Part shown: one piece after another, positions 4,932-18,941 of the stretch | How positions within the stretch are numbered: position 1 is the stretch's first letter | Layout of the letters: the number at the start of each line of letters is the position of its first letter | NCBI GenBank assembly: GCA_016840965.1 | Contig: JAEORI010000120.1 | Span: 1-21,883, forward strand | Length of the DNA stretch: 21,883 nt | Source: Candidatus Thorarchaeota archaeon | GTDB lineage: Archaea; Asgardarchaeota; Thorarchaeia; Thorarchaeales; Thorarchaeaceae | Direction of reading: 5' to 3' | Made by a program: the position numbers and the translations under genes | Notes under the pieces: generated by a model | Seen by the model: the letters and a program-made list of their open reading frames with translations, nothing else | Database searches by the model: none | What the model was told of the DNA's origin: nothing

Positions 4932-7900
4932 TCAGTAAACTGTAAACTGTTTTTTGATTAATTCCACAGCTCTCGCCGGGAGAGGTCGTCCTGATTGCAA
5001 GATTACTGCATCGACATAATACCCTGTAACAACATCAATTGGTGGTGTTACCCAATTGACTTTAACCACATTTGTCTTTGAATCTGAATCTGGTAATGGA
5101 ATCTCGAACTCTTTGATAATATCCCTCTTTGACATGATTCTAATAATCAAAGCAAGATTTTCTATCTTCTTTCTCATGCTTTCAATATTGGCAATTATCT
5201 CAACAGAAGATAATCTGGCAACGAGACCTGGAATCTCATCTCCGGTTTCATTCCTTATGGAAAATTCAATCTTGAATAATGAACTCTCAATTGCTTTGAT
5301 TTTGAATCTCTGTTTCTTCTCATATGACTTAGTTCCACATCTGATTGTTGCTCGCATATGCGCAGTACTCATCTCAGCACTTAATGGAATTCTAACTGGA
5401 AGTGGGAACAGTCTTTCCTTTCCTGATTCAAGATCTAGCTCTTGATTCAGGAGTTCTCTATTACCACCAATTGATTCAAACTCAACGGTGAGAAGGCACT
5501 TCAACTTCTTCTCTATACTACTAAGTATTTTGAGTGTAGGTTGAATCAATTCATCAGGTTCTGTATAATTGGGGAGACCTATGAACTCAATTTGAGCGAT
5601 GTCCTTATGTGGCCCTCCCATTAAATCAATCACTGTTGACCTCTTATCAACTTCAATACCTGCAAAATTCAATGTAGCTATCAAGGTGACGGAACGATGA
5701 TCTGCATTCATACGAGGCGCGGGGATAGTTACTGGACCAAATGCTAGTGAGAGGTTCTTGCTCTGTTTAACTGATTGGGTTAAAACATGATGTTCGTCAC
5801 CATCTGGAAAAATGAGCGTGATATTGAGGACTGCTGGTTCTCCTAATTCTGTATTCCTTCTAATTCTCAACCAACCTGTGACCTTACCACCGATATGTGA
5901 TCGTTGAGGAACTCTAAGTGAATCTATATTGACTCTCGTGGTTATTTGTTCTATCCGAAATCTATCAGATTCAGCTAATGCAATGATATTTCCTTTCTCT
6001 TTTAGCGATGCTTTGATTATTCCTGATCTATCAGCTGGACTCTCAAAAACCATAACTGGTATTTTCCATAGAAAACCTAAAGCTCCCGTCTTGTACTCTT
6101 CGTCGAGAAACTCTTCAATTAGATACGTTCGTCCAGAATCACTACTGAATTCTAATAATAGTCGAGTATTTACTCCTGTTTTGCGCTCAAGATTAGTAAC
6201 TAGGATGTCTCCGGAAATGGTTTCCCCAACAGCATATTCGCCTTTCAGATCAGTGTTCATGATAATTTGTGGTCCCCTTTTTACGAAACCGACATAGAAT
6301 GGTTTTGAAACAGATTCTGCAATCTCAGTTCCCTTTTCGTTAAATAGACTGATTTGCAATATGCATCTCTCAACACCATCAGAAGCGCCTGATGGAATTA
6401 GAATAGGCAGGAATTTAGTGTTGTCGAATCTGGTGATATCTCCGCTCTCTACTTGCAGCATGTCCTGAGATGTGATAAGGACTTTCTCCATGTTCGGTGC
6501 GATGACACTTATATGGCATTGAACCCTTGTTTGCGAAGGATAGTTCGTTTCTATCTGCCCATCAAAAATTACAGGTGTTTTGCCATCTGCAAACTGTGTT
6601 GTTGTCCTTGGTTTGATTGATGTTCTCATCCAATACATAGTGATTGTAGTTGTAAGATTCACGAGTCTGCCAACAAAACCAACTTCTGCTATGATGTTAT
6701 ATGCGGCGATATTTTTCTTGGTCTTGAATAATACATCGGAAACATGGATTTCTCCGTTATCTATAGTTGGTATTGTTAACACATTTCTCTCAATGACATT
6801 TCTTTCGGAATCCTCAATTGAGTATGAGATTGAAATATCTTCAAGTTGCCTGCCCGTTGTGTTTTTTACTAGGAAGCTGAACTGAACGTCCTGACCTGCA
6901 AAGACTCTATCAGCATTGATAATAATTTCAGGCTCGAGTCCTTTCCACCAACATAACCAAGTTGGAAGGTGAGGTGTTCCCTCGAATGGATCATATAACC
7001 AATTTGTACTACATTCTCTAGTTACTTCTGATAGTTGTTTCAAAAGAACTACCATATTATTGTCGGATTTTGCATAGACCTCTAGTTGGAAGTCGGCACT
7101 TGTGGTTCGAGGTTCGATATATTCGCTTCCAAAAACAGAAACTAGAAGTGCTTGGATAAAGGGATTTTCAACAACATGTAGCTCTTCAAGTTCATCCTTA
7201 ATTAGATACAGCATGGATACTACTGCATCACCCAGGAACCTGTTTCTCTTTCTTTCATCAATTTGTCCATCATCTGTAATTTGTTGATTGTATATCTTGG
7301 TGTAAAATGACCCCTTGACTTCTTCTCCTGGTCGAAACGGGCCCCAGAGTCCTGCTGACAACGCAGCCTCTCTATTGGCCGCTAGAGTCTTAGGTCCTAC
7401 ATCTGGTATTGATTCTCCTTTTTCGACCATCTTCTTAGCCTTGAGAGCCAATGCTTGAAGAAGTAAAGCTAAACCTATACGTCGTGGGATTGACAATTGA
7501 GTGTCGAAAACTCGGATCTCGATAGTCCCAAAATCGGTGAACGGATACATATCGACCATGCGAGCATAGCTTCGGTTTACATGGCGAGCAAATGATTCTC
7601 TATCAGTCCCACGAAGATATGGGATTAATTCAAACTCGTTGGTTGGTCCCATTTGCGTTGTATTTCTAAACAATCTGATAGACCTTTTACAGCGTGGCGC
7701 CCTCACTCGTCCATCTTCAGATATTGATATCTCATCACTTGGTTTCTTATTCTCAAATGGCGAGTTGACTGATAGTGCGATGAGATGAGGAAGGAAATTC
7801 CTTATCATGTTGTAGACTGCTATCTTTGTCTTCTCATCTGTCTTGGAACCAAGGATATGATGATGTTCTCCAAATGAAAGATTTCTCAAGTATTCCTGAG

Positions 7901-8369
7901 TAGGGTTTAGTCCTGTAGAAATTAGGATAGCTTTCGCATCGCTGGGGAGCGATTCTTGTGAGATTGCAATTAGTGTCTGAATCCACCAAGCAAGTTCTTC
8001 GAGTGTAGTACAAGGTGGGGTAGCAATTTCGAGAATCCATGTCAAACTTGTAACATTGGGGTCATGACCCAAAAGTGTGTATTCTTTTATTTGCCCATTC
8101 GGATCTTCATATGAAACTACAATTCTTGATCCCCTCTCTCCCTCTTCCGTTTGAGCTGATTGTTTGTATTTTTTCTTGACTGATTCTACAGTTGAAACGC
8201 GAATCTTTTTTTCTAATAATCCCTTGGCGTTAGAGACTATTCCATCAAAGATTTGGAGGATGTCTTCTCCTCGTATCCATGTTCCATCCTTTCGTATAAC
8301 TTGGAGCTCTACTTCTATTCCATGAGGGAAGGGAATCTTCATCTCTGAGTTATCAACAATTGAGCTCAT
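4932..8369 (-). CDS. Glutamate-cysteine-ligase-like (GCS2) domain fused to about six beta-sandwich domains
   Basis: The product is 1145 residues from the ATG at 8369, chosen because AGGTGG lies 5 nt upstream; a GTG at 8378 directly after the previous stop would add three residues. Residues about 12-455 show the carboxylate-amine ligase fold of the GCS2/YbdK type: HGIEVELQVI (16-25), LEIATPP (113-119), FGEHHHI (166-172), SVNSPFE (200-206) and DFGTIEIRVFDTQ (279-291). These carry the acidic and His residues expected for Mg-ATP and substrate. From about 480 to the end there are roughly six tandem beta-sandwich segments of 100-120 residues, resembling CARDB/immunoglobulin-like modules (one begins GEYAVGETISGDILVTNLER near 710). 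There is no signal peptide or membrane helix, so I predict a cytoplasmic protein. The substrate is unknown; ligation of an amine to a carboxylate is inferred from the fold. It follows two uncharacterised genes, directly abutting the nearer one. Confidence 0.8.
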   Translation of the reverse strand: MSSIVDNSEMKIPFPHGIEVELQVIRKDGTWIRGEDILQIFDGIVSNAKGLLEKKIRVSTVESVKKKYKQSAQTEEGERGSRIVVSYEDPNGQIKEYTLLGHDPNVTSLTWILEIATPPCTTLEELAWWIQTLIAISQESLPSDAKAILISTGLNPTQEYLRNLSFGEHHHILGSKTDEKTKIAVYNMIRNFLPHLIALSVNSPFENKKPSDEISISEDGRVRAPRCKRSIRLFRNTTQMGPTNEFELIPYLRGTDRESFARHVNRSYARMVDMYPFTDFGTIEIRVFDTQLSIPRRIGLALLLQALALKAKKMVEKGESIPDVGPKTLAANREAALSAGLWGPFRPGEEVKGSFYTKIYNQQITDDGQIDERKRNRFLGDAVVSMLYLIKDELEELHVVENPFIQALLVSVFGSEYIEPRTTSADFQLEVYAKSDNNMVVLLKQLSEVTRECSTNWLYDPFEGTPHLPTWLCWWKGLEPEIIINADRVFAGQDVQFSFLVKNTTGRQLEDISISYSIEDSERNVIERNVLTIPTIDNGEIHVSDVLFKTKKNIAAYNIIAEVGFVGRLVNLTTTITMYWMRTSIKPRTTTQFADGKTPVIFDGQIETNYPSQTRVQCHISVIAPNMEKVLITSQDMLQVESGDITRFDNTKFLPILIPSGASDGVERCILQISLFNEKGTEIAESVSKPFYVGFVKRGPQIIMNTDLKGEYAVGETISGDILVTNLERKTGVNTRLLLEFSSDSGRTYLIEEFLDEEYKTGALGFLWKIPVMVFESPADRSGIIKASLKEKGNIIALAESDRFRIEQITTRVNIDSLRVPQRSHIGGKVTGWLRIRRNTELGEPAVLNITLIFPDGDEHHVLTQSVKQSKNLSLAFGPVTIPAPRMNADHRSVTLIATLNFAGIEVDKRSTVIDLMGGPHKDIAQIEFIGLPNYTEPDELIQPTLKILSSIEKKLKCLLTVEFESIGGNRELLNQELDLESGKERLFPLPVRIPLSAEMSTAHMRATIRCGTKSYEKKQRFKIKAIESSLFKIEFSIRNETGDEIPGLVARLSSVEIIANIESMRKKIENLALIIRIMSKRDIIKEFEIPLPDSDSKTNVVKVNWVTPPIDVVTGYYVDAVILQSGRPLPARAVELIKKQFTVY

Positions 8370-8378
8370 TTCATCCAC

Positions 8379-9644: not shown

Positions 9645-10706
9645 TCACAATTGGGCTTCAGGTAGCTCTCCGGCAAAATGACATGCTACAAAATGATTGT
9701 TACCCATATCCCTGTCTTCAGGCACTTCTCTTACGCAAATCTCTTGTGCATATTGACATCTTGGGTGGAAGCGACATCCAGATGGTACATTTATTGGGCT
9801 AGGAGGCTCTCCCTTAAGTGACTCAACTCTTCTTTTTACTGTTGGATCGCCAGATGGAACAGCTGAAAGAAGTGCTCGAGTATAAGGATGCAATGGACTG
9901 AATGCTACATCATGAGCAGGACCTATTTCCAATATTTTTCCTAGATACATAATACCAATTCTGTCTGCGATGTATGTAGCTACTGCAAGATCGTGCGTTA
10001 TGAATAAGTATGTAAGACCAAGTTCTTCTCTTAAGGTGAGTAATAGGTTTAGAATCTCCGCACGAATTGATACATCTAGCATTGATACTGGTTCGTCAGC
10101 AACCATGAACTCTGGGTGTAGAATTAGAGCTCTGGCTACTGAAATTCTCTGTCGCTGTCCGCCTGAGAGTTCATGCGGAAACCTGTCAATATAATCTTCA
10201 GCAGGAGTTAGCGCAACACTTTCCAATGATTCGAGAACTCTCTGACGTCTTTGACTCGGAGTAAGTGGAATTTTATGAACAAGTAGTGGCTCTTCTACGA
10301 TATTGAAGATGCTTTGTTTAGGATTCAGTGATTCATATGGGTCCTGGAATGTAATCTGCATCCGTTTCCTCAGTTCTTTGATTTCGTTGCGGTCCAAGGT
10401 GGCCAGGTTTTGACCTGCATAAACGATATCACCATCTGTGGGGATTTCGAGATGAAGTACACATCTACCTGTTGTTGTTTTACCACATCCACTCTCCCCC
10501 GCAAGTACTAGGACTTCTCCCTTTATGATATCAAAGGTTACTCCATCCACAGCCTTCACAAACAACTCTTGTTTGTATAAAAGGGAGGACAGAAATCCAG
10601 TATTCACTGGAAACCATTTACGCATGTTCTTCACAGAAATCAAAGTTTCTCCGTCTTTGATGTCCACGGAACCCTGTAGAACTTTTAACTTATCAACTGT
10701 CATCAT
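9645..10706 (-). CDS. dppF: Oligopeptide/dipeptide ABC transporter ATPase, DppF/OppF type
   Basis: This 353-residue cytoplasmic ATPase has Walker A GESGCGKT (70-77), Q-loop ITFQDPYESLNP (118-129), signature LSGGQRQR (180-187), Walker B MVADEP (201-206) and switch His238 (ITHDL). The C-terminal oligo_HPY region carries four cysteines (311, 317, 324, 342; CRFHPRC and ACHF), a pattern kept in the partner ATPase too. An ATPase of this kind forms a heterodimer with DppD to power peptide import through DppB/DppC. Tandem ATGs at 10706/10703 follow GGAGTGAT, which is embedded in the end of the upstream DppD-type gene (3-nt gap), so translation is coupled. The exact substrate class (dipeptides, oligopeptides, or sugars as in some archaeal members) is not determined by the sequence. 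Confidence 0.93.
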   Translation of the reverse strand: MMTVDKLKVLQGSVDIKDGETLISVKNMRKWFPVNTGFLSSLLYKQELFVKAVDGVTFDIIKGEVLVLAGESGCGKTTTGRCVLHLEIPTDGDIVYAGQNLATLDRNEIKELRKRMQITFQDPYESLNPKQSIFNIVEEPLLVHKIPLTPSQRRQRVLESLESVALTPAEDYIDRFPHELSGGQRQRISVARALILHPEFMVADEPVSMLDVSIRAEILNLLLTLREELGLTYLFITHDLAVATYIADRIGIMYLGKILEIGPAHDVAFSPLHPYTRALLSAVPSGDPTVKRRVESLKGEPPSPINVPSGCRFHPRCQYAQEICVREVPEDRDMGNNHFVACHFAGELPEAQL

Positions 10707-10709
10707 TGA

Positions 10710-11699
10710 TCACTCCAAATCTATCTCCATCTCTCCCTTGAGTTGTTCCGCAAAATGACAGGCCACAAACCTATCCGGTTCAATCTCATCAAATGGTGGA
10801 TCTTCCTTCGAACAGATATCCTGTGCGTATGGACATCGTGGATGGAACCGGCACCCTGATGGAGGTTCAATGAGATCCGGTGGTGAACCAGGAATTGAGG
10901 TGAGTTTCTTTTTCTCTGCTTTTACCATACTCGGAATTGCTCCGACCAGACCCGTAGCATATGGATGAACAGGCTCTTTGAAAACTGATACCACATCTGC
11001 AAGTTCTGCTATCTTACCAGCATACATGATTGCTGTCTTGTCACAGGTTTCAGCAATTACACTCAAGTCATGCGTAATAAGAATGAGCGACAGACCAAGA
11101 TCTTTCTGTAACTTCTGCATGAGCTTTAGAATTTGAGCTTGAATCGTGACATCTAGTGCTGTGGTTGGTTCATCTGCAATTACGAGATCCGGATTGCATG
11201 CCAGTGCCATGGCAATCATAGCTCTCTGACGCATTCCACCTGAGAATTCATGAGGATAGTTGTGAATACGACTAGGATCAAGACCGACCATCTCAAAAAG
11301 CTTAGCACAGCGGTCAAGAGCTTCTTCCTCGGTTACGTTTTCATGCATTAGAATTGCTTCAGCAATTTGTTCTCCTATCTCAAAAACTGGATTCAATGCA
11401 TTCATTGCACCTTGGAATACGATAGCTACATTCTTCCAACGGATGTCTCGCATCTCCTTTGCGCTCTTCCGAATTAAGTCATCACCCTTAAAGAACACAT
11501 TTCCACCAAGAATGTTTGCAGCAGGTGGTAGAAGCTGCATTATCGAGTATGCAAGACTACTTTTTCCGCAACCAGATTCGCCTGCGAGTCCTATCGATTC
11601 TCCTGGTTCTAATGTGAGAGACACATCATCGACTGCTTTCACCAAGCCTTTCTGAGTCTTATAATACATTCTCAGATTCCGAATATCGAGCAGGGGCAT
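10710..11699 (-). CDS. dppD: Oligopeptide/dipeptide ABC transporter ATPase, DppD/OppD type
   Basis: The product is 329 residues from the ATG at 11699, preferred because GGAGTG lies 7 nt upstream and the protein then begins MPLLDIRNLRMYY, as in homologues. An ATG at 11714 would add five residues. It has Walker A GESGCGKS (40-47), Q-loop VFQGAMNALNP (94-104), signature FSGGMRQR (152-159), Walker B LVIADEP (172-178) and the H-loop ITHDL. The C-terminal oligo_HPY domain has Cys283, 289, 296 and 314. It is the first gene of the ATPase pair, transcribed away from the permease genes. It would pair with the DppF-type ATPase at the cytoplasmic face of the permeases. Confidence 0.93.
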   Translation of the reverse strand: MPLLDIRNLRMYYKTQKGLVKAVDDVSLTLEPGESIGLAGESGCGKSSLAYSIMQLLPPAANILGGNVFFKGDDLIRKSAKEMRDIRWKNVAIVFQGAMNALNPVFEIGEQIAEAILMHENVTEEEALDRCAKLFEMVGLDPSRIHNYPHEFSGGMRQRAMIAMALACNPDLVIADEPTTALDVTIQAQILKLMQKLQKDLGLSLILITHDLSVIAETCDKTAIMYAGKIAELADVVSVFKEPVHPYATGLVGAIPSMVKAEKKKLTSIPGSPPDLIEPPSGCRFHPRCPYAQDICSKEDPPFDEIEPDRFVACHFAEQLKGEMEIDLE

Positions 11700-11781
11700 G
11701 TTTATACACTCCATCGAGCCTTCAATGGCTCTGGGCGTGGAATCACCTCACCCTATTGGGGTATCGTTGCCAGTTGGTTGG

Positions 11782-12252: not shown

Positions 12253-12421
12253 ATCTCTCATTTGCATATCCGAACTATTTCTGCTACCCGAACCAATTGC
12301 TTTTTTAGGGCAACTTTGAGGTTTTCAAATATTAGACAGGATAATGGCAAATTCATTTCAATGTTTGAGAGATTGTACTTTCTTGTATTGAGTGAATTGC
12401 TCTTTCATCGGAGGATTAGAT

Positions 12422-13996
12422 TTGTCAAAATCGGATAAAGGCTGGAGAGATAGTAACTGGTATCATAGTCTATCCAATTTCTTACGAGAATACCGCAAGC
12501 ATAAGATTGGAATTATTGGACTGACAATTATGTCTGTTTTCATCGCGACAGCTGTATTTGCACCATATTTGGGGACATTGGATCCAAACCCACTGAAGAC
12601 GATTGCTCCTTCTTACTTAGCACCATCCTGGATGAGCGTTTTTGATCCGCAGGGTGTTGTTACAGATAATTATCTAGATAAATCGGATTTAAACCAAGAA
12701 CCGTATATGCATGTCAATGGAGAAAGTGGTGAGTTTAGTACAGCATATAAGCAGGCTACTGAACCTGGCGAAACTAGTCATGTTAACTTAACTTGGCAGC
12801 ACACAGCTGGCGTGCATTTGGACTACCTTGGCCCAGATCCTGGAATGTCCTACCCCGATTATAATGACTTTGTCTACTTTGATCAGTCTTTTGATTGGCA
12901 ATGGAATGGTATGCCTAGTGCTGTCAACTTATCATTTTTCATTAACACTTACCGGACAGGTGATTTTGCTGAAGGCGCTCGACCCTACAATAACAAGATG
13001 TTCCGGATTTATGTATGGATGGTTACCCCTGCAGGTGACTGGATTAGAGTATATTCGACGGATGATGACACATACTCAGAGTCCCTTCAAGTACGTCGTG
13101 TTCCTTTCACATATCTTAATGTTAGAGATACTTTTCGAGGTATGATTACTGTAAATGGGACACAACCTTTTGTAAACGACACGGTCAAAGTTCGTGTCGG
13201 ACTGGCTCCGCTCAGGAACTTTGAAAGTTATGGTGGTATAATTCCGTGGGAAGAGTATACGGGCAGTGTCACAGTTATGGCTACAGGTGTTCAACTGACT
13301 GCCTATGGAGGCTACTTTGGCGCACTTGGGACTACATTCTGGGGTGCAGATGCCTATTCACAGATAGTATATGGAAGTCGGGTTTCACTTATGATTGGAA
13401 TTCTAGCAACAGGTCTCTCAACCATTGTGGGGGTGATAGTTGGGCTTGTCGCGGGATACTACGGTGGGAAAGTTGATGAGGTTCTTATGCGCTTTGTCGA
13501 TTTTCTGTTGGTTATCCCCTCTTTACCGCTAATGATGGTATTAGCCATTTTCCTTGGAAAATCCACATTTAATATCATAGTAGTAATAGCTATACTAGGT
13601 TGGACGGGGACTGCGAGGTTGATACGATCTCAGGTTCTTGCTGAGAAGAATAAAGCATATGTTGAATCCGCAAGAGCGATTGGTGCTACTGACACGTATA
13701 TTATGTTCAGACATGTTCTACCGAATGTGACACCGATCCTCTTCGCAAATATCACACTTGGTGTGGTAGGAGCAATCTTAGCTGAGGCTGGGTTATCATT
13801 CCTTGGTCTGACTGACATTGAAGAACCCAGTTGGGGAAGAATGCTTGCGGACGCTCAAAATGGAGCAGCTTTTATCAGAGGTGCTTGGTGGGTAGTTGTG
13901 TTCCCTGGCCTTATGATAACTCTCCTCTCTCTATCCTTCACTTTCGTGGGTCACACGCTTGATCAAGTGCTAAATCCAAGATTACGAGAGAGATAG
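12422..13996 (+). CDS. dppC: ABC peptide transporter permease, DppC/OppC type, with large extracytoplasmic insertion
   Basis: The product is 524 residues, against about 280-320 for usual DppC proteins. The TTG at 12422 is chosen because GGAGGA lies 6 nt upstream; a GTG at 12392 is in frame but has no site. An N-terminal amphipathic segment (FLREYRKHKIGIIG) leads into the first membrane helix (about 29-50). Residues about 75-295 form a non-canonical extracytoplasmic domain rich in Tyr, Trp, Asp and beta-strand-like segments, with several N-glycosylation-type sequons. The normal permease resumes at LGTTFWGADAYSQIVYGSR (302-320, the degenerate form of the DppC LGTDxxGRD motif). Five more helices follow, with the EAA loop YVESARAIGATDTYIMFRHVLPN, which contacts the ATPases. 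The C-terminus, FTFVGHTLDQVLNPRLRER, is typical. It forms the channel with the DppB-type protein encoded next. Confidence 0.92.
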   Translation: MSKSDKGWRDSNWYHSLSNFLREYRKHKIGIIGLTIMSVFIATAVFAPYLGTLDPNPLKTIAPSYLAPSWMSVFDPQGVVTDNYLDKSDLNQEPYMHVNGESGEFSTAYKQATEPGETSHVNLTWQHTAGVHLDYLGPDPGMSYPDYNDFVYFDQSFDWQWNGMPSAVNLSFFINTYRTGDFAEGARPYNNKMFRIYVWMVTPAGDWIRVYSTDDDTYSESLQVRRVPFTYLNVRDTFRGMITVNGTQPFVNDTVKVRVGLAPLRNFESYGGIIPWEEYTGSVTVMATGVQLTAYGGYFGALGTTFWGADAYSQIVYGSRVSLMIGILATGLSTIVGVIVGLVAGYYGGKVDEVLMRFVDFLLVIPSLPLMMVLAIFLGKSTFNIIVVIAILGWTGTARLIRSQVLAEKNKAYVESARAIGATDTYIMFRHVLPNVTPILFANITLGVVGAILAEAGLSFLGLTDIEEPSWGRMLADAQNGAAFIRGAWWVVVFPGLMITLLSLSFTFVGHTLDQVLNPRLRER

Positions 13997-14087: not shown

Positions 14088-14156
14088 TCATGGACTTCCT
14101 CAATGTGCATCAGTACTTAGTATCGCTATGTACTAACATTATTGGAGTATCAAGAA

Positions 14157-15218
14157 ATGGGACTTCGCGAGTATGTAATAAGACGCAGCGTCTACATGTT
14201 TCTTCTAATAGTAGCTGTAGTATGCTTCAACTTCTTCCTATTCAGACTCCCAACATTCTTCTTTGGGGCTAATCCAATCAGTCTGATGCTCAGTGATGAG
14301 CTTCGTCGTAACCTGACTCAAGACCTCTTGGAACAAATGTATGCCAACTTTGGACTAGTAATGAATCCTGACATATTTGACTGGATCTATATGTTCTGGC
14401 GTTATCTTGTTAGTATGTTCACTGGGAACTTTGGAGTTTCATTTCTGACAAAAAGGCCAGTAATGGAGTCAATTGTTGAGCGTTTGCCCAACACATTGTT
14501 GCTGATGGGCACATCCTCAATGGTTGCTATTCTTCTTGGCATCTGGACTGGTGTCAAGGTAGCATCTGACCCGGGTTCAAAGAAAGATATCGGTGCAGTC
14601 ACTGTGGCACTCTTTGTTTATGCACTGCCTGTCTTCTGGCTAGGTATGATACTTCTCTTGGTCTTTGGCTATATGCTCCCGCTATGGACTGAAGCAACGT
14701 TTGGTGTTGCTATTGGATTCCCACAGTTTGGAACTATCAGTTATGAGGTTTGGGAGGTGGCAAGAACAAGTCCATTTGGTGCCTTAATAGTAGCTGGTGA
14801 CGTGCTTCATCACTTGATCTTACCTATGCTAACTTTAGGTGTCGGTGGCTATGGTGGCTATTTCTTCTATATGCGCAACAATCTCATAGATGTTATGACT
14901 GAAGACTATATCCTAACCGCCAGAGCAAAAGGTCTTGATGAGAATCAGGTGCTTTACAAACATGGCATGAAAAACGCAATGCTGCCAATGGTGACTGTTA
15001 TCGCATTGACCTTTGGATTTCTGATAAATGGTGCAACACTAACAGAAACAGTCTTCACGTGGCGAGGGTTGGGACGGTTTATTTTCGAGAGCTTGGTAGC
15101 ACTAGATTTCCCTGTGGTTCAAGCAATCTTCATGATCATCGCAATCACTGCCATTCTAGCAAACTTTGTGGCTGATTTGCTATATGGTGTGCTTGATCCA
15201 CGAATCAAATACGGATGA
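14157..15218 (+). CDS. dppB: ABC peptide transporter permease, DppB/OppB type
   Basis: The product is 353 residues from the ATG at 14157, giving the typical MGLREYVIRRSVYM opening, with GGAG 9 nt upstream; a TTG at 14142 is in frame. There are six membrane helices in the DppB order. A long extracytoplasmic stretch follows helix 1 (about 30-85) and contains GNFGVSFLTKRPVMESIVERLPNT (in parts), the usual G-D-x-G-x-S-region equivalent. The EAA cytoplasmic loop is DYILTARAKGLDENQVLYKH, followed by GMKNAMLPMVT. The C-terminus, ADLLYGVLDPRIKYG, is the standard ending. It lies downstream of the DppC-type gene, the reverse of the common B-then-C order. It forms the transmembrane channel with that protein. 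Confidence 0.94.
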   Translation: MGLREYVIRRSVYMFLLIVAVVCFNFFLFRLPTFFFGANPISLMLSDELRRNLTQDLLEQMYANFGLVMNPDIFDWIYMFWRYLVSMFTGNFGVSFLTKRPVMESIVERLPNTLLLMGTSSMVAILLGIWTGVKVASDPGSKKDIGAVTVALFVYALPVFWLGMILLLVFGYMLPLWTEATFGVAIGFPQFGTISYEVWEVARTSPFGALIVAGDVLHHLILPMLTLGVGGYGGYFFYMRNNLIDVMTEDYILTARAKGLDENQVLYKHGMKNAMLPMVTVIALTFGFLINGATLTETVFTWRGLGRFIFESLVALDFPVVQAIFMIIAITAILANFVADLLYGVLDPRIKYG

Positions 15219-15224
15219 TTCTTT

Positions 15225-15257
15225 GAGGGAGCTCATAGCTCCCCCTCTCTTCTTTTT
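15225..15257 (+). terminator. Strong hairpin and T-tract after the DppB-type gene
   Basis: GGGAGCT (15227-15233) and AGCTCCC (15237-15243) form a perfect 7-bp stem with a 3-nt loop, extendable by GA/TC with one bulge. CCTCTCTTCTTTTT follows (about 15244-15257). It starts 7 nt after the dppB stop and resembles an intrinsic terminator. Confidence 0.62.
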
Positions 15258-15333
15258 CAGAAACATCGAATGAATAATTGAATCTTTAAGACTCTGTTTA
15301 TACAATTCAGATGTGTGCACGCACGTACACAAC

Positions 15334-15352
15334 GGTTACGAAATACGTAACC
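15334..15352. promoter_or_regulatory. Inverted repeat at the BRE position of the binding-protein promoter, probable operator
   Basis: GGTTACGAAATACGTAACC has perfect 7-bp arms around 5 nt. It directly abuts the TATA-like element at 15354-15363, so a bound protein would cover the BRE/TFB site. The preceding TGTGTGCACGCACGTACACA is also partly self-complementary. Confidence 0.5.
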
Positions 15353-15421: not shown

Positions 15422-17296
15422 ATGAATACTAATAGGAGAACTCGTCTTCTAGCTATCACCTTCGTCACAGCTTTTATGTTTATGGCGCTCTCGCCAGCAC
15501 TTGGCGGTGCCCAACCCATAGTGACACTTGCTGACCTGAACATAGGTCCATTTGTTGACAAAGTTGTGTTCAAAGTGATTGCCACAGAGGACAACATGAT
15601 CCTAGCTATGCAAAGTGGGGCAGTTGACCTACATGATAGTTTTATTGAACCAACAACTATCCCCATCTTTGATGCTGATCCTAATATTGAAATTAGCGAA
15701 AACATCCTTCGTAATGGATATGGCCATATTGTAATGAACAATGCAAAATCTCCCATGAACTGGACTGAATTCCGCAGAGCTTTTGCTTTGGCTTTTGATA
15801 AGACAAGAGTCCAGACAGAGGTCTTCCAGGGCTTGAGTAAATTGCACGATTCGCTTGTTGTCTACACAAATGACCTCTTCTGCATTGAAGACGACCTTCC
15901 ATACCATTACTACCTACCTCAGGTTCCAGAAGGTAACCAGTTATTGAATGATACAGGATTTGGTTTTGATCCTGTCACGGGATATCGTACAGATCCGAAT
16001 GGTAATCCAATCTCAATCGAGATTGCTTATTCACCATCTTCACCCGCGATTGCTGGTGGTACTGCCCAAATTGGTGTTGATGCTCTCCGAGCACTACACA
16101 TTGAAGCTGTCACAAACCAAGCAGACTTCAATACATATAGCTCAAACCTAGATCAGCATGGTGACTATGACATGATTTTCTACGCCACCATCTTCTACGG
16201 CAAGACCCTAGATTATCTAGTACAGAGATATGGCTCGGAATACGCAACTGTACCCTACCAGAATCCCTCTAACTTCAGGAACGAAACTGTTGACGGAATT
16301 CTAGATGAAATTCTGGCTGCAACAACCTATGAAGAGGCTTATGATGCATGTGCAGAGTTCCAGTTGGTAATGCAGGAACAAGTGCCAATTTTGATTACCT
16401 ATGAGAACTATTATCTCCAAGGTTATAGAACCGACAAGTTCACAGGTCTCATCTCTGACAAAGGTAGATACCTTAACAGCAAATGGAACCTGCAGAGAAT
16501 ACACAAGCTCGATGGCACATATGGTGAAACCCTTTCCCTGAGAATTGGTCAAGAGCCAGACACCTTCAATATCTTCACATCGAACTCTGGATATACTTCG
16601 AATATCATAAGCACAATGTACTCTCCTCTGTATGACTTCGGTCCTGACCTGGATCCATATCCAGTACTTGCAGAGGGTTATCTCGAGGAAACCCATGATA
16701 CCAATGCAGCGGTCCCAGTCGGACACCACAGGTTCACTTTTGACATCATTCAGAACGCAACCTGGAGCGACGGAGTTAAACTCACTGCTGAGGATGTTGC
16801 ATTCACATTCAACTACCTCTTGGAAACTCTTCCATTGGGTAATCCTAGTGGTGCATCCTTTGCTGATGCTAATCTGTTTGCTGTTTATGCTCCATCAACC
16901 TACAAGGTTGTTGTAGAGTTTGCAACAGTAAGCTACTGGAACTTTGGTGTAGCTGCATACAACTATATCATTCCAAAGCACATCTTCGAACCTGGTGCTG
17001 GCATCGGCTATGAAGGATGGAACACCTGGAATCCAGCGTTCAATCCTGAAGATCCATTTGTCACCTGCGGTCCATTCAAGTTCACTGATATGGAAGCTGG
17101 AGAGTTCTACGAAGTTACAGTCGATCCACTATGGGCTTACTTGCCTGAAGATCGATTTGCTACACCAACCACAACTCCAACTGGTACTGAACCCACTACT
17201 CCACCACCCGACTTCACCTTAGCTATCGTAGCTGGTGCGGTTGGCGCTGCAGTAGTGATTCTCGTTGGTGGTTTCGTATTACTAAGACAGAAGTAG
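15422..17296 (+). CDS. Peptide-type solute-binding protein (SBP family 5) with circularly permuted domain order
   Basis: The product is 624 residues from the ATG at 15422, chosen because AAGGAGAT precedes it and the protein then starts with a signal peptide (MNTNRRTRLL plus a hydrophobic core, cut near ALGGA-QP, about 30). The longer frame from 15311 has no signal-peptide form. In normal DppA/OppA proteins lobe I comes first. Here residues 43-355 correspond to the later part: VDKVVFKVIATEDNMILAMQ (45-64), SGAVDL, EFRRAFALAFDKTRV (116-130), and the C-terminal MQEQVPILITYENYYL (317-332). Residues 366-575 correspond to the canonical N-terminus: LSLRIGQEPDTFNIF, MYSPLYDF, PVLAEGY, RFTFDIIQNATWSDGVKLTA (in parts, about 437-456), EDVAFTF and CGPFKFTDMEAGEFY. 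A Thr/Pro stalk (581-597) and one helix (599-621) anchor it outside the cell. It delivers substrate to the neighbouring permeases. The permutation call rests on motif order alone. Confidence 0.9.
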   Translation: MNTNRRTRLLAITFVTAFMFMALSPALGGAQPIVTLADLNIGPFVDKVVFKVIATEDNMILAMQSGAVDLHDSFIEPTTIPIFDADPNIEISENILRNGYGHIVMNNAKSPMNWTEFRRAFALAFDKTRVQTEVFQGLSKLHDSLVVYTNDLFCIEDDLPYHYYLPQVPEGNQLLNDTGFGFDPVTGYRTDPNGNPISIEIAYSPSSPAIAGGTAQIGVDALRALHIEAVTNQADFNTYSSNLDQHGDYDMIFYATIFYGKTLDYLVQRYGSEYATVPYQNPSNFRNETVDGILDEILAATTYEEAYDACAEFQLVMQEQVPILITYENYYLQGYRTDKFTGLISDKGRYLNSKWNLQRIHKLDGTYGETLSLRIGQEPDTFNIFTSNSGYTSNIISTMYSPLYDFGPDLDPYPVLAEGYLEETHDTNAAVPVGHHRFTFDIIQNATWSDGVKLTAEDVAFTFNYLLETLPLGNPSGASFADANLFAVYAPSTYKVVVEFATVSYWNFGVAAYNYIIPKHIFEPGAGIGYEGWNTWNPAFNPEDPFVTCGPFKFTDMEAGEFYEVTVDPLWAYLPEDRFATPTTTPTGTEPTTPPPDFTLAIVAGAVGAAVVILVGGFVLLRQK

Positions 17297-17375: not shown

Positions 17376-17448
17376 AGAAGAGTACAAATTGCGTGAAAGA
17401 GAGTTTCTTTAATGTATTCTAATTGCTTGGCAACGAAGGGATTCATTG

Positions 17449-18321
17449 ATGAAACTTGATAGAAAAAGACTTGAAGTCATTCTAATCTCAACTGTTCCTC
17501 TTATTATTGGTGCTGGACTAGCTGTGCTTATTAGTACATCCGGAGAACTTGGAGACATTCTATCTTGGAATTCACAGGTCATTTCGATAACAGACATTGC
17601 TGTTCAGGCTATTGTATCAACGGGCTTAGGATCACTTGTTGTGGTTTCTCTCTTCTTTACAATTCAAAGGCAAGGACCTAGGACAAGAAGGACGATTATC
17701 GCGTTTATTGTATCTCCTGTTCTGACTGTATCTTTCTATATTATTGGCCAATCTTTATTCCTCATAATCATAAAAGGAGCAAATGATTCAATCTGGCCTA
17801 GTATTCTTGCCATTGCATCTCTAGGAATTCTTCTCATGTCTTTTTCCTTTATTATGATGGACTCAGTTCCTTCATATATCAGGAATTTCTTTGTTGCTTT
17901 CTATGGAAGTGTTTTTGGGACTTTCCTTGGAGTTATTTTCCTTACTGCAAGTATGTTCGTACTAGTGGTCTCAGTCGTTCTAGAAGACTATCTACTCACA
18001 AGGTTCTCTCCAATTGCTGAATCGGCTTATCTAATTGACACTCCTGGTTCCGATCCTTTTGATTTCACAAGAATTCAGTCAAAGACTGCAGCAGTGGGCG
18101 TTGGAGATTATATAGCGTTCTCCCTCATTTCCGCTCATTCCTTGATCTTCTTTCCATTTCATGTCTGGATAATGTCTATTTTACTAGCAATCTTTGGAAT
18201 AACTATCAACATGACTGTAATCGCTCGTGAAAATGAAATATTGCCTGGAATTCCTCTTCCTGCAATTCTAGCTCTATTCCCGTGGATTGTTCATTTGATA
18301 TCGTTGCCATTGTTAGTCTGA
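17449..18321 (+). CDS. Presenilin/signal-peptide-peptidase-like intramembrane aspartyl protease
   Basis: The product is 290 residues from the ATG at 17449; the TTG just before it is in frame. Nine membrane helices can be drawn, at about 9-29, 49-72, 83-108, 116-136, 145-166, 167-183, 217-237, 239-259 and 270-289. This is the presenilin topology. An Asp (residue 180, in LEDYLL) lies at the end of helix 6. GVGD (217-220) lies at the start of helix 7, matching the family's YD and GxGD catalytic aspartates. LPAIL (270-274) in the last helix is the likely equivalent of the PAL motif, as in archaeal A22 proteases (COG3389). Such enzymes cut transmembrane segments of substrate proteins. Overall similarity is weak, so the call rests on motif spacing and topology. 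It is followed after 65 nt by a single-pass protein, a possible partner or substrate. Confidence 0.7.
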   Translation: MKLDRKRLEVILISTVPLIIGAGLAVLISTSGELGDILSWNSQVISITDIAVQAIVSTGLGSLVVVSLFFTIQRQGPRTRRTIIAFIVSPVLTVSFYIIGQSLFLIIIKGANDSIWPSILAIASLGILLMSFSFIMMDSVPSYIRNFFVAFYGSVFGTFLGVIFLTASMFVLVVSVVLEDYLLTRFSPIAESAYLIDTPGSDPFDFTRIQSKTAAVGVGDYIAFSLISAHSLIFFPFHVWIMSILLAIFGITINMTVIARENEILPGIPLPAILALFPWIVHLISLPLLV

Positions 18322-18386: not shown

Positions 18387-18941
18387 GTGATTTCGAGTGA
18401 TCGCGCTCAAAACGTCATTGTTTCATTTGTTATAATTACAGCAGTTGTAAGTTCAGTCCTTCTAGTTGGGAATGCTAATTACTACAGTGGTAGCTATGTT
18501 TTGGCTGGAAGATTGGAAGTAAGTATTGTAGACACTATTGTAAGTGATTTAGCTCCGGCCAATGATTCGATTTATCCTGTTCTAGCGTTCACCATCAATT
18601 TTCGCACTGATTCACCAATTGAAGGAAATGTTCAGCTGACTGCTATTTATGCATCTGTTTTTCTTAATGATGATCTTCTCTCTTATACTCCGTTCAGTAG
18701 AGATATTTCAAATGACGCTAAACGATTACTTCATCCAGCATACAATTCTAACTTTACTCTAGCGACTAGAATCAATTCAAACACAGATAGAACCACTATT
18801 CTTCAAGCTGATAGTAGTGAAACGTGGAATTGGTATCTAAATTTAAGGTACGAGTTCATTACATTTAATGAGCCACGATCGCTCGCGCGGATATATCTCT
18901 CATTCAATTGGACTGATTCTACGACAGTAATCTACTATTAA
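18387..18941 (+). CDS. Single-pass membrane protein with extracytoplasmic domain, unknown function
   Basis: This 184-residue protein starts with GTG at 18387, 4 nt after a GTGATC that can pair with 16S rRNA. Residues about 9-30 form one membrane helix without an obvious cleavage site. The remaining 150 residues, on the outer side, alternate hydrophobic and polar residues as in a beta-rich domain. They hold sequons such as NDS, NFT and NWT, and the protein ends SFNWTDSTTVIYY. No family is recognised. It lies 65 nt downstream of the presenilin-like protease on the same strand and with no clear promoter between them, so it is probably cotranscribed. Its single membrane helix makes it a plausible substrate or regulator of that protease, but this is inference from position only. 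Confidence 0.68.
   Translation: MISSDRAQNVIVSFVIITAVVSSVLLVGNANYYSGSYVLAGRLEVSIVDTIVSDLAPANDSIYPVLAFTINFRTDSPIEGNVQLTAIYASVFLNDDLLSYTPFSRDISNDAKRLLHPAYNSNFTLATRINSNTDRTTILQADSSETWNWYLNLRYEFITFNEPRSLARIYLSFNWTDSTTVIYY

Follow-up and report, generated by a model that had tools for sequence, protein, structure and literature searches.

The gene at positions 15422..17296 (+) of the window, the 21,883-nucleotide stretch of Candidatus Thorarchaeota archaeon contig JAEORI010000120.1 analysed here, encodes a 624-residue solute-binding protein of cluster C (family 5, PF00496), P0001, which is very probably a natural circular permutant serving the adjacent OppBCDF-type importer. The open reading frame (ORF), its coordinates and the motifs from which a first-pass annotation had proposed a permuted peptide-binding protein were all confirmed. 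The frame contains no internal stop, and the purine-rich motif AAGGAGA precedes the start at 15422; an alternative in-frame ATG is located at 15311. The encoded chain begins with a signal-peptide-like N-terminus (15422..15511), in which a hydrophobic helix spans residues 5-27 of both the sequence and the AlphaFold2 model. This is followed by the part that is second in canonical proteins (15548..16456, residues 43-345), by the junction of the old C-terminus to the old N-terminus (16457..16513, residues 346-364), and by the canonical first part, here placed last (16514..17119, residues 365-566). A Thr/Pro-rich stalk, modelled at a low predicted local distance difference test score (pLDDT; 17159..17212, residues 580-597), and a C-terminal membrane anchor helix (17213..17284, residues 598-621; helix 599-623 in the model) complete the protein. 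All of these features lie on the forward strand.

The swapped order was obtained by Pfam, hidden Markov model (HMM) and phmmer comparisons alike. The only Pfam family matched by P0001 is PF00496, in two stretches and with 130.5 bits against a gathering cut-off of 32.4. When the halves were searched separately, bases 15548-16486 alone matched PF00496 positions 148-354 (E 3.8e-22) and bases 16517-17146 alone matched positions 3-135 (E 2.8e-15), which is the reverse of the normal order on the profile. Against a canonical HMM of 534 positions, built from 77 canonical family-5 proteins, each canonical part occurs once in P0001, in one open frame and rotated, with HMM positions 226-515 followed by 37-216. 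Similarly, phmmer aligned residues 113-346 with positions 267-505 of PDB chain 7ebm, by its PDB title a Vibrio chitin-oligosaccharide-binding protein, and residues 438-499 with positions 68-125. The circular permutation claimed in the first-pass annotation is thus borne out, and its distribution proved wider than had been thought. We refer to this order as type A.

Among type A relatives HMM positions 226 and 225 are the most frequent starts of the first match, and the final match mostly ends at 219-230; the cut therefore falls between neighbouring canonical positions. The match ends of both parts vary slightly among these relatives, and the junction spans 20-49 residues in the 45 permuted rows, with a length of 21-27 in 28 of them. 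In the HMM alignment the cut lies between W233 and P237 of DppA. In the three-domain convention, as used for EppA in the available part of PMC7312458, this is approximately the end of Domain I and the start of Domain IIa. The clean lobe boundary originally proposed is only partly supported, as the cut occurs about 40 residues ahead of the two-strand hinge and both new ends consequently lie on the N-lobe side. For the same reason the proposed transfer of the tether to lobe I stands as a change in the place of attachment rather than clearly in the lobe. Several canonical Asgard proteins carry inserts exactly at this cut (28 residues in P0126, 23 in P0127 and 14 in L097), as expected for a permissive surface loop. 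Inserts of 23-28 residues at the site were seen in the canonical-order proteins L095:1018-3168 (-), which is P0126, L096:1021-3021 (-), which is P0127, and L098:17-2020 (-).

The AlphaFold2 model of P0001 was confident, with a pLDDT of 89 and a predicted template modelling score (pTM) of 0.82. Its residues 37-363 superpose on residues 203-507 of mature DppA, and the best structural match obtained with VIA-align 2 was AppA, a nonapeptide binder. Structure alignment thereby confirmed the cluster C fold for the second part of P0001, while the placement of the last third rests on sequence matches and the global pTM because the aligners are sequence-ordered.

A search for homologues of P0001 yielded 538 proteins, and type A order was present in all 120 that were listed; candidates in the protein searches were confined to 0.55-1.75 times the query length. 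In a second search using two deep type A relatives (A3), the 120 proteins listed of 739 comprised 103 of type A, 16 canonical ones and one with a different rotation, type B. Five Thorarchaeota genomes (those of L001, L002, L004, L006 and L007) gave 78 PF00496 matches. Among them, 31 genes begin with the second part; in 28 the first part occurs downstream in the same ORF, and the remaining three are cut short or are without a second match. The same genomes contain 14 canonical genes, one type B gene and three fragments. Full canonical copies therefore do exist in related genomes, as separate genes beside permuted ones, and do not mark the permuted order as an artefact. Across the Asgard phylum, 62 of 227 genomes matched the type A alignment at E≤1e-20, and at least 55 of the 227 hold type A, as judged by a match that spans the junction or by an ORF that parses as type A (42 from alignment-search rows and 13 from follow-up analyses). 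In the other seven matching genomes the match was broken (G189 and G215) or the best match was type B (G008) or canonical (G009, G172, G174 and G177). Up to five candidates per genome were scored in this survey, so per-genome counts are lower bounds.

Type A sequences with archaeal labels include P0258 (Nitrososphaerota), P0279, P0280 and P0315 (Bathyarchaeota) and P0290 (Freyarchaeota, Asgard). Three others are labelled bacterial, namely P0298 (Limnochordales), P0304 (Bacillota) and P0319 (Aminivibrio), and in these the chain stops directly behind the cut and has neither stalk nor anchor. As nearly all names are marked as derived from metagenome-assembled genomes, the taxon labels rest on binning by others. 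The order is kept in a large and divergent family, and its distribution suggests that such permutation is common in some archaea and also occurs in sequences labelled as bacterial. Type A genes form a head-to-tail array at 1444-15222 of L042 (G005:C173), with seven complete copies and one more cut at the contig end; the stretch gave no match to the Opp genes of the window. Long frames of 1291-1294 residues on G005:C173 were considered as fused tandems and rejected, since the DNA parses into separate ORFs of 623-634 residues.

In the window, the gene is preceded by genes for an OppB/DppB-type permease (14142..15218, +; BPD_transp_1), an OppC/DppC-type permease (12392..13996, +; OppC_N and BPD_transp_1) and two Opp-type ATPases (10710..11714 and 9645..10706, both -; ABC_tran and oligo_HPY), all assigned by Pfam and recurring in related loci. 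We compared ten loci with relatives of P0001 (L001-L010), and Opp importer genes were found beside the type A gene in four of them. L002 and L006 have the same arrangement as the window, with ATPases, OppC, OppB, the binding protein and two following genes; L001 retains OppC, OppB, the binding protein and the following genes, and L005 a cut OppB piece, OppB, the binding protein and the following genes. In L003 the following genes are kept and there is hardly any upstream sequence. Ratios of nonsynonymous to synonymous substitution rates (dN/dS, Nei-Gojobori) were approximately 0.12 (L001), 0.17 (L002) and 0.20 (L003, with dS near saturation) and were low in both halves of the gene, which is under purifying selection. 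The Opp context and the low ratios, well below 1, support the initial view of a functional gene.

Several further features of the locus were observed. The OppC-type permease at 12392-13996 has 534 residues, with OppC_N at 29-66, BPD_transp_1 at 347-532 and about 280 residues between them; this large extra region may face the binding protein. The genes at 17446-18321 and 18387-18941 gave no Pfam match. In L001-L006, too, they come after the binding-protein gene and in unchanged order, the second being cut by the end in L002. At 4932-8378 (-) a 1148-residue protein is encoded whose only match is a weak one to GCS2 (glutamate-cysteine ligase family 2), and in L002 and L006 it is again a neighbour of the Opp genes. 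The terminator claimed earlier is present as a terminator-like hairpin 3' of the P0001 gene (17308..17326, +), and another is located between the OppB and P0001 genes (15227..15243, +). Both are pattern matches; a scan of the region gave seven such matches against 1.3 in shuffled sequences, some of them inside the gene. An inverted repeat, GGTTACGAAATACGTAACC, occurs at 15334-15352, about 70 bases 5' of the start codon, and could be a terminator, which it resembles by pattern, or alternatively an operator.

Type B is a second rotation with its cut near HMM position 368, in the C-lobe. It was found in Baldrarchaeia, Bathyarchaeota and other Asgards (G001:C35 is one case), and the genome of the Thorarchaeota archaeon SMTZ1-45 contains canonical, type A and type B forms together. 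The label also requires the position of the chain end, which separates true type B from end-truncated type A: nine of 16 B-like locus ORFs are true type B (L022, L099, L125, L126 and L128-L132), and L021, L025, L052, L088, L091 and L116 were rejected as end-truncated type A. The sixteenth, L049:1-2202 (-), is a contig-cut ORF of 734 residues in which a MAM-like domain is flanked by two small family-5 matches whose order is unusual. Trees were built after the parts had been put back into canonical order. The set of 90 rows left out ten named type A rows (P0332 included), any row filled in fewer than 330 columns and any permuted row split into more than three pieces, and the remainder was thinned by identity; a set of 39 rows was hand-picked from the 90. 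A single clade of types A and B was rejected in the 39-row tree (p 1.25e-5), and the two rotations are therefore best read as separate events. A single type A clade was not rejected with 90 rows (p 0.57) and was rejected with 39 (p 0.016), the canonical Asgard proteins P0126 and P0127 falling inside type A. A single type B clade was likewise rejected (p 0.0077, 39 rows), with the canonical L012 inside it. A FastTree of the N-part only was poorly supported and did not hold type A together, and so is of no help to a single origin. Canonical proteins inside A and B could reflect repeated events, a return to canonical order or poor resolution of long branches. We tentatively entertain, as a doubtful joint reading, that the fold ring has more than once been opened and closed anew, at two favoured sites and perhaps with reversals to canonical order, and that the order sets both the lobe bearing the tether (the N-lobe side in type A and canonical proteins, the C-lobe in type B) and the docking to the permease.

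In the mechanism we propose, which leans on the structural model, the chain would adopt the standard two-lobed Venus flytrap fold. A short loop would connect the original N- and C-termini, and the new ends would lie at the strand-to-strand turn corresponding to W233-P237 of DppA. The protein would be secreted and tethered to the outer face of the membrane by the stalk and the C-terminal helix, whose point of exit would now be elsewhere on the N-lobe side. The flytrap would then capture its ligand outside the membrane, close and pass it on to OppBC in the manner of ordinary binding proteins. A tandem duplication of the gene or its coding region, with new ends then formed within the first and second copies, may have given rise to the permuted form, and type B is probably an independent re-cut of the same fold on the C-lobe in related archaea.

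Several observations weigh against parts of this interpretation. Foldseek and VIA-align 2 matched essentially residues 35-364 of the model, although both align in sequence order, which makes the missing matches beyond these residues uninformative. In L004 the gene is present together with the genes downstream of it, with no Opp match in 10 kb upstream; among the distant paralogues, L007-L009 gave no Opp match in the stretch examined and L010 nothing beyond distant ATPase matches (26-30% identity). Intact tandem relatives, which the first-pass annotation had suggested looking for, did not appear among the listed homologues (up to 1.75 times the query length) or the locus ORFs. Finally, R383 and D436, which hold the ends of the dipeptide in DppA according to the available part of PMC12136057, align in the HMM alignment with S204 and Y259 of P0001. 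The corresponding columns of a 68-row alignment (A1) are mostly S/A/G/P and mostly Y/L/G, respectively. The peptide-binding role assumed at the outset is accordingly unproven, and the ligands may be peptides or other oligomers. That P0001 works in the same transporter while binding non-peptides such as oligosaccharides is a serious possibility, if somewhat the less probable one: besides these substitutions, the best sequence and structure matches in the PDB include chitin-oligosaccharide- and mannoside-binding family-5 proteins. However, AppA as the best structural match binds nonapeptides, the alignment of the D436 loop is possibly shifted by a few residues, and other family-5 proteins bind peptides without the exact R383/D436 pair. 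In five Asgard genomes, moreover, type A relatives share one chain with a subtilisin-like protease, which suggests peptides as the ligand in that branch. These chains, each of more than 2000 residues, combine type A and Peptidase_S8 and are located at L110:798-8558 (-), L111:1184-8113 (-), L112:376-7935 (-), L113:1-6720 (-) and L116:1-6207 (-). Ig-like domains are located behind the protease in L110, and the first part of the chain is cut off in L116. By its domain content, such a chain would be a secreted protease carrying its own binding protein.

With respect to origin, it is hardly credible that pieces of neighbouring normal genes were misjoined in an assembly artefact, chimera or pseudogene. 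Tandem arrays such as that of L042 could in principle misassemble, but the order shared by all 120 listed relatives excludes chance or artefact, and the open frame, the purifying selection and the recurrence of the Opp locus in L001, L002, L005 and L006 argue in the same direction. As first suggested, a tandem duplication after which the outer halves were lost is plausible, and the tandem arrays and exact cuts fit it. Gene fission into half-genes, later fused in the other order, appears unlikely by comparison, although it would agree with the presence of each part exactly once and with the lack of fused tandems, none of which occurred among 125 distinct matching locus ORFs of at least 350 residues; owing to their length limits, the homologue searches are weak on fused intermediates. 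Very long relatives (1260-2587 residues) were examined as tandems and rejected, each being one permuted binding protein with other domains after it. ORFs with only one half do exist, most of them truncated where a contig or stretch ends, and half-genes below 0.55 times the query length could not be listed because of the length range of the candidates. The argument against fission is a weak one, namely that tandem arrays of these genes exist, which suits duplication. As to why a permuted order would be kept, selection for a moved membrane anchor, altering the reach of the tethered protein to the permease, seems an improbable cause. By a simple hydropathy measure, the C-terminal segment is anchor-like in 117 of the 120 listed type A relatives of P0001 and in all 38 type B proteins, compared to 12 of 82 canonical ones, and the anchor follows different points of the fold in the three forms; type A has its stalk and anchor leaving where Domains I and II meet, type B from the C-lobe. 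Among the type A proteins listed in the A3 search, however, 58 of 103 have such a segment and 45, including P0298, P0304 and P0319, do not. Since many type A proteins are without an anchor, its placement is not the sole reason for permutation.

Among the importer components of prokaryotes, family-5 binding proteins are very common, and a large permuted family among them passes as ordinary because the annotating profile gives no account of the order of the pieces. The findings indicate that a two-lobed flytrap can be opened at different points and yet be kept by selection. They amount to two or more natural experiments on how such proteins fold, are tethered and dock, and they provide ready permuted scaffolds for biosensors. 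Because one genome contains all three orders, what permutation costs or gains can be tested directly. In keeping with the earlier impression that the arrangement had not been described, no report of family-5 circular permutants was found in a single open-access library, which was the scope of the search as opposed to subscription papers and preprints; the available parts of PMC12136057, PMC7312458, PMC9732360 and PMC2395249 report none. The fold family and the evolutionary process are each established, whereas their combination was found unreported and is unexpectedly frequent.

Compared to the known cluster C proteins DppA, OppA and AppA, P0001 is homologous over both parts, has the same fold over the part tested and has the same type of partner, an OppBCDF-type importer. 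It differs in that the parts are swapped, R383 and D436 of DppA are not found at the aligned positions, the signal peptide precedes the former middle and the membrane stalk follows the former first third. Natural circular permutation has been described among glycine-betaine-binding proteins, molybdate-binding proteins and CysB, any pair of which is less than 24% identical and related by structure (CPSARST; PMC2395249, available part). Type A resembles these cases, as far as they are described there, in that a two-lobed solute-binding protein of an ABC importer has been permuted naturally. The CPSARST cases belong to other clusters, whereas here the permutants occur inside one Pfam family, in two versions and beside canonical copies. 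The clusters of those binding proteins are smaller ones. The canonical tethered family-5 proteins P0156, P0163, P0165 and P0166 share with P0001 a signal-peptide-like start, a Ser/Thr/Pro-rich or linker region and a C-terminal membrane helix, but in these proteins the tail follows the canonical C-terminus.
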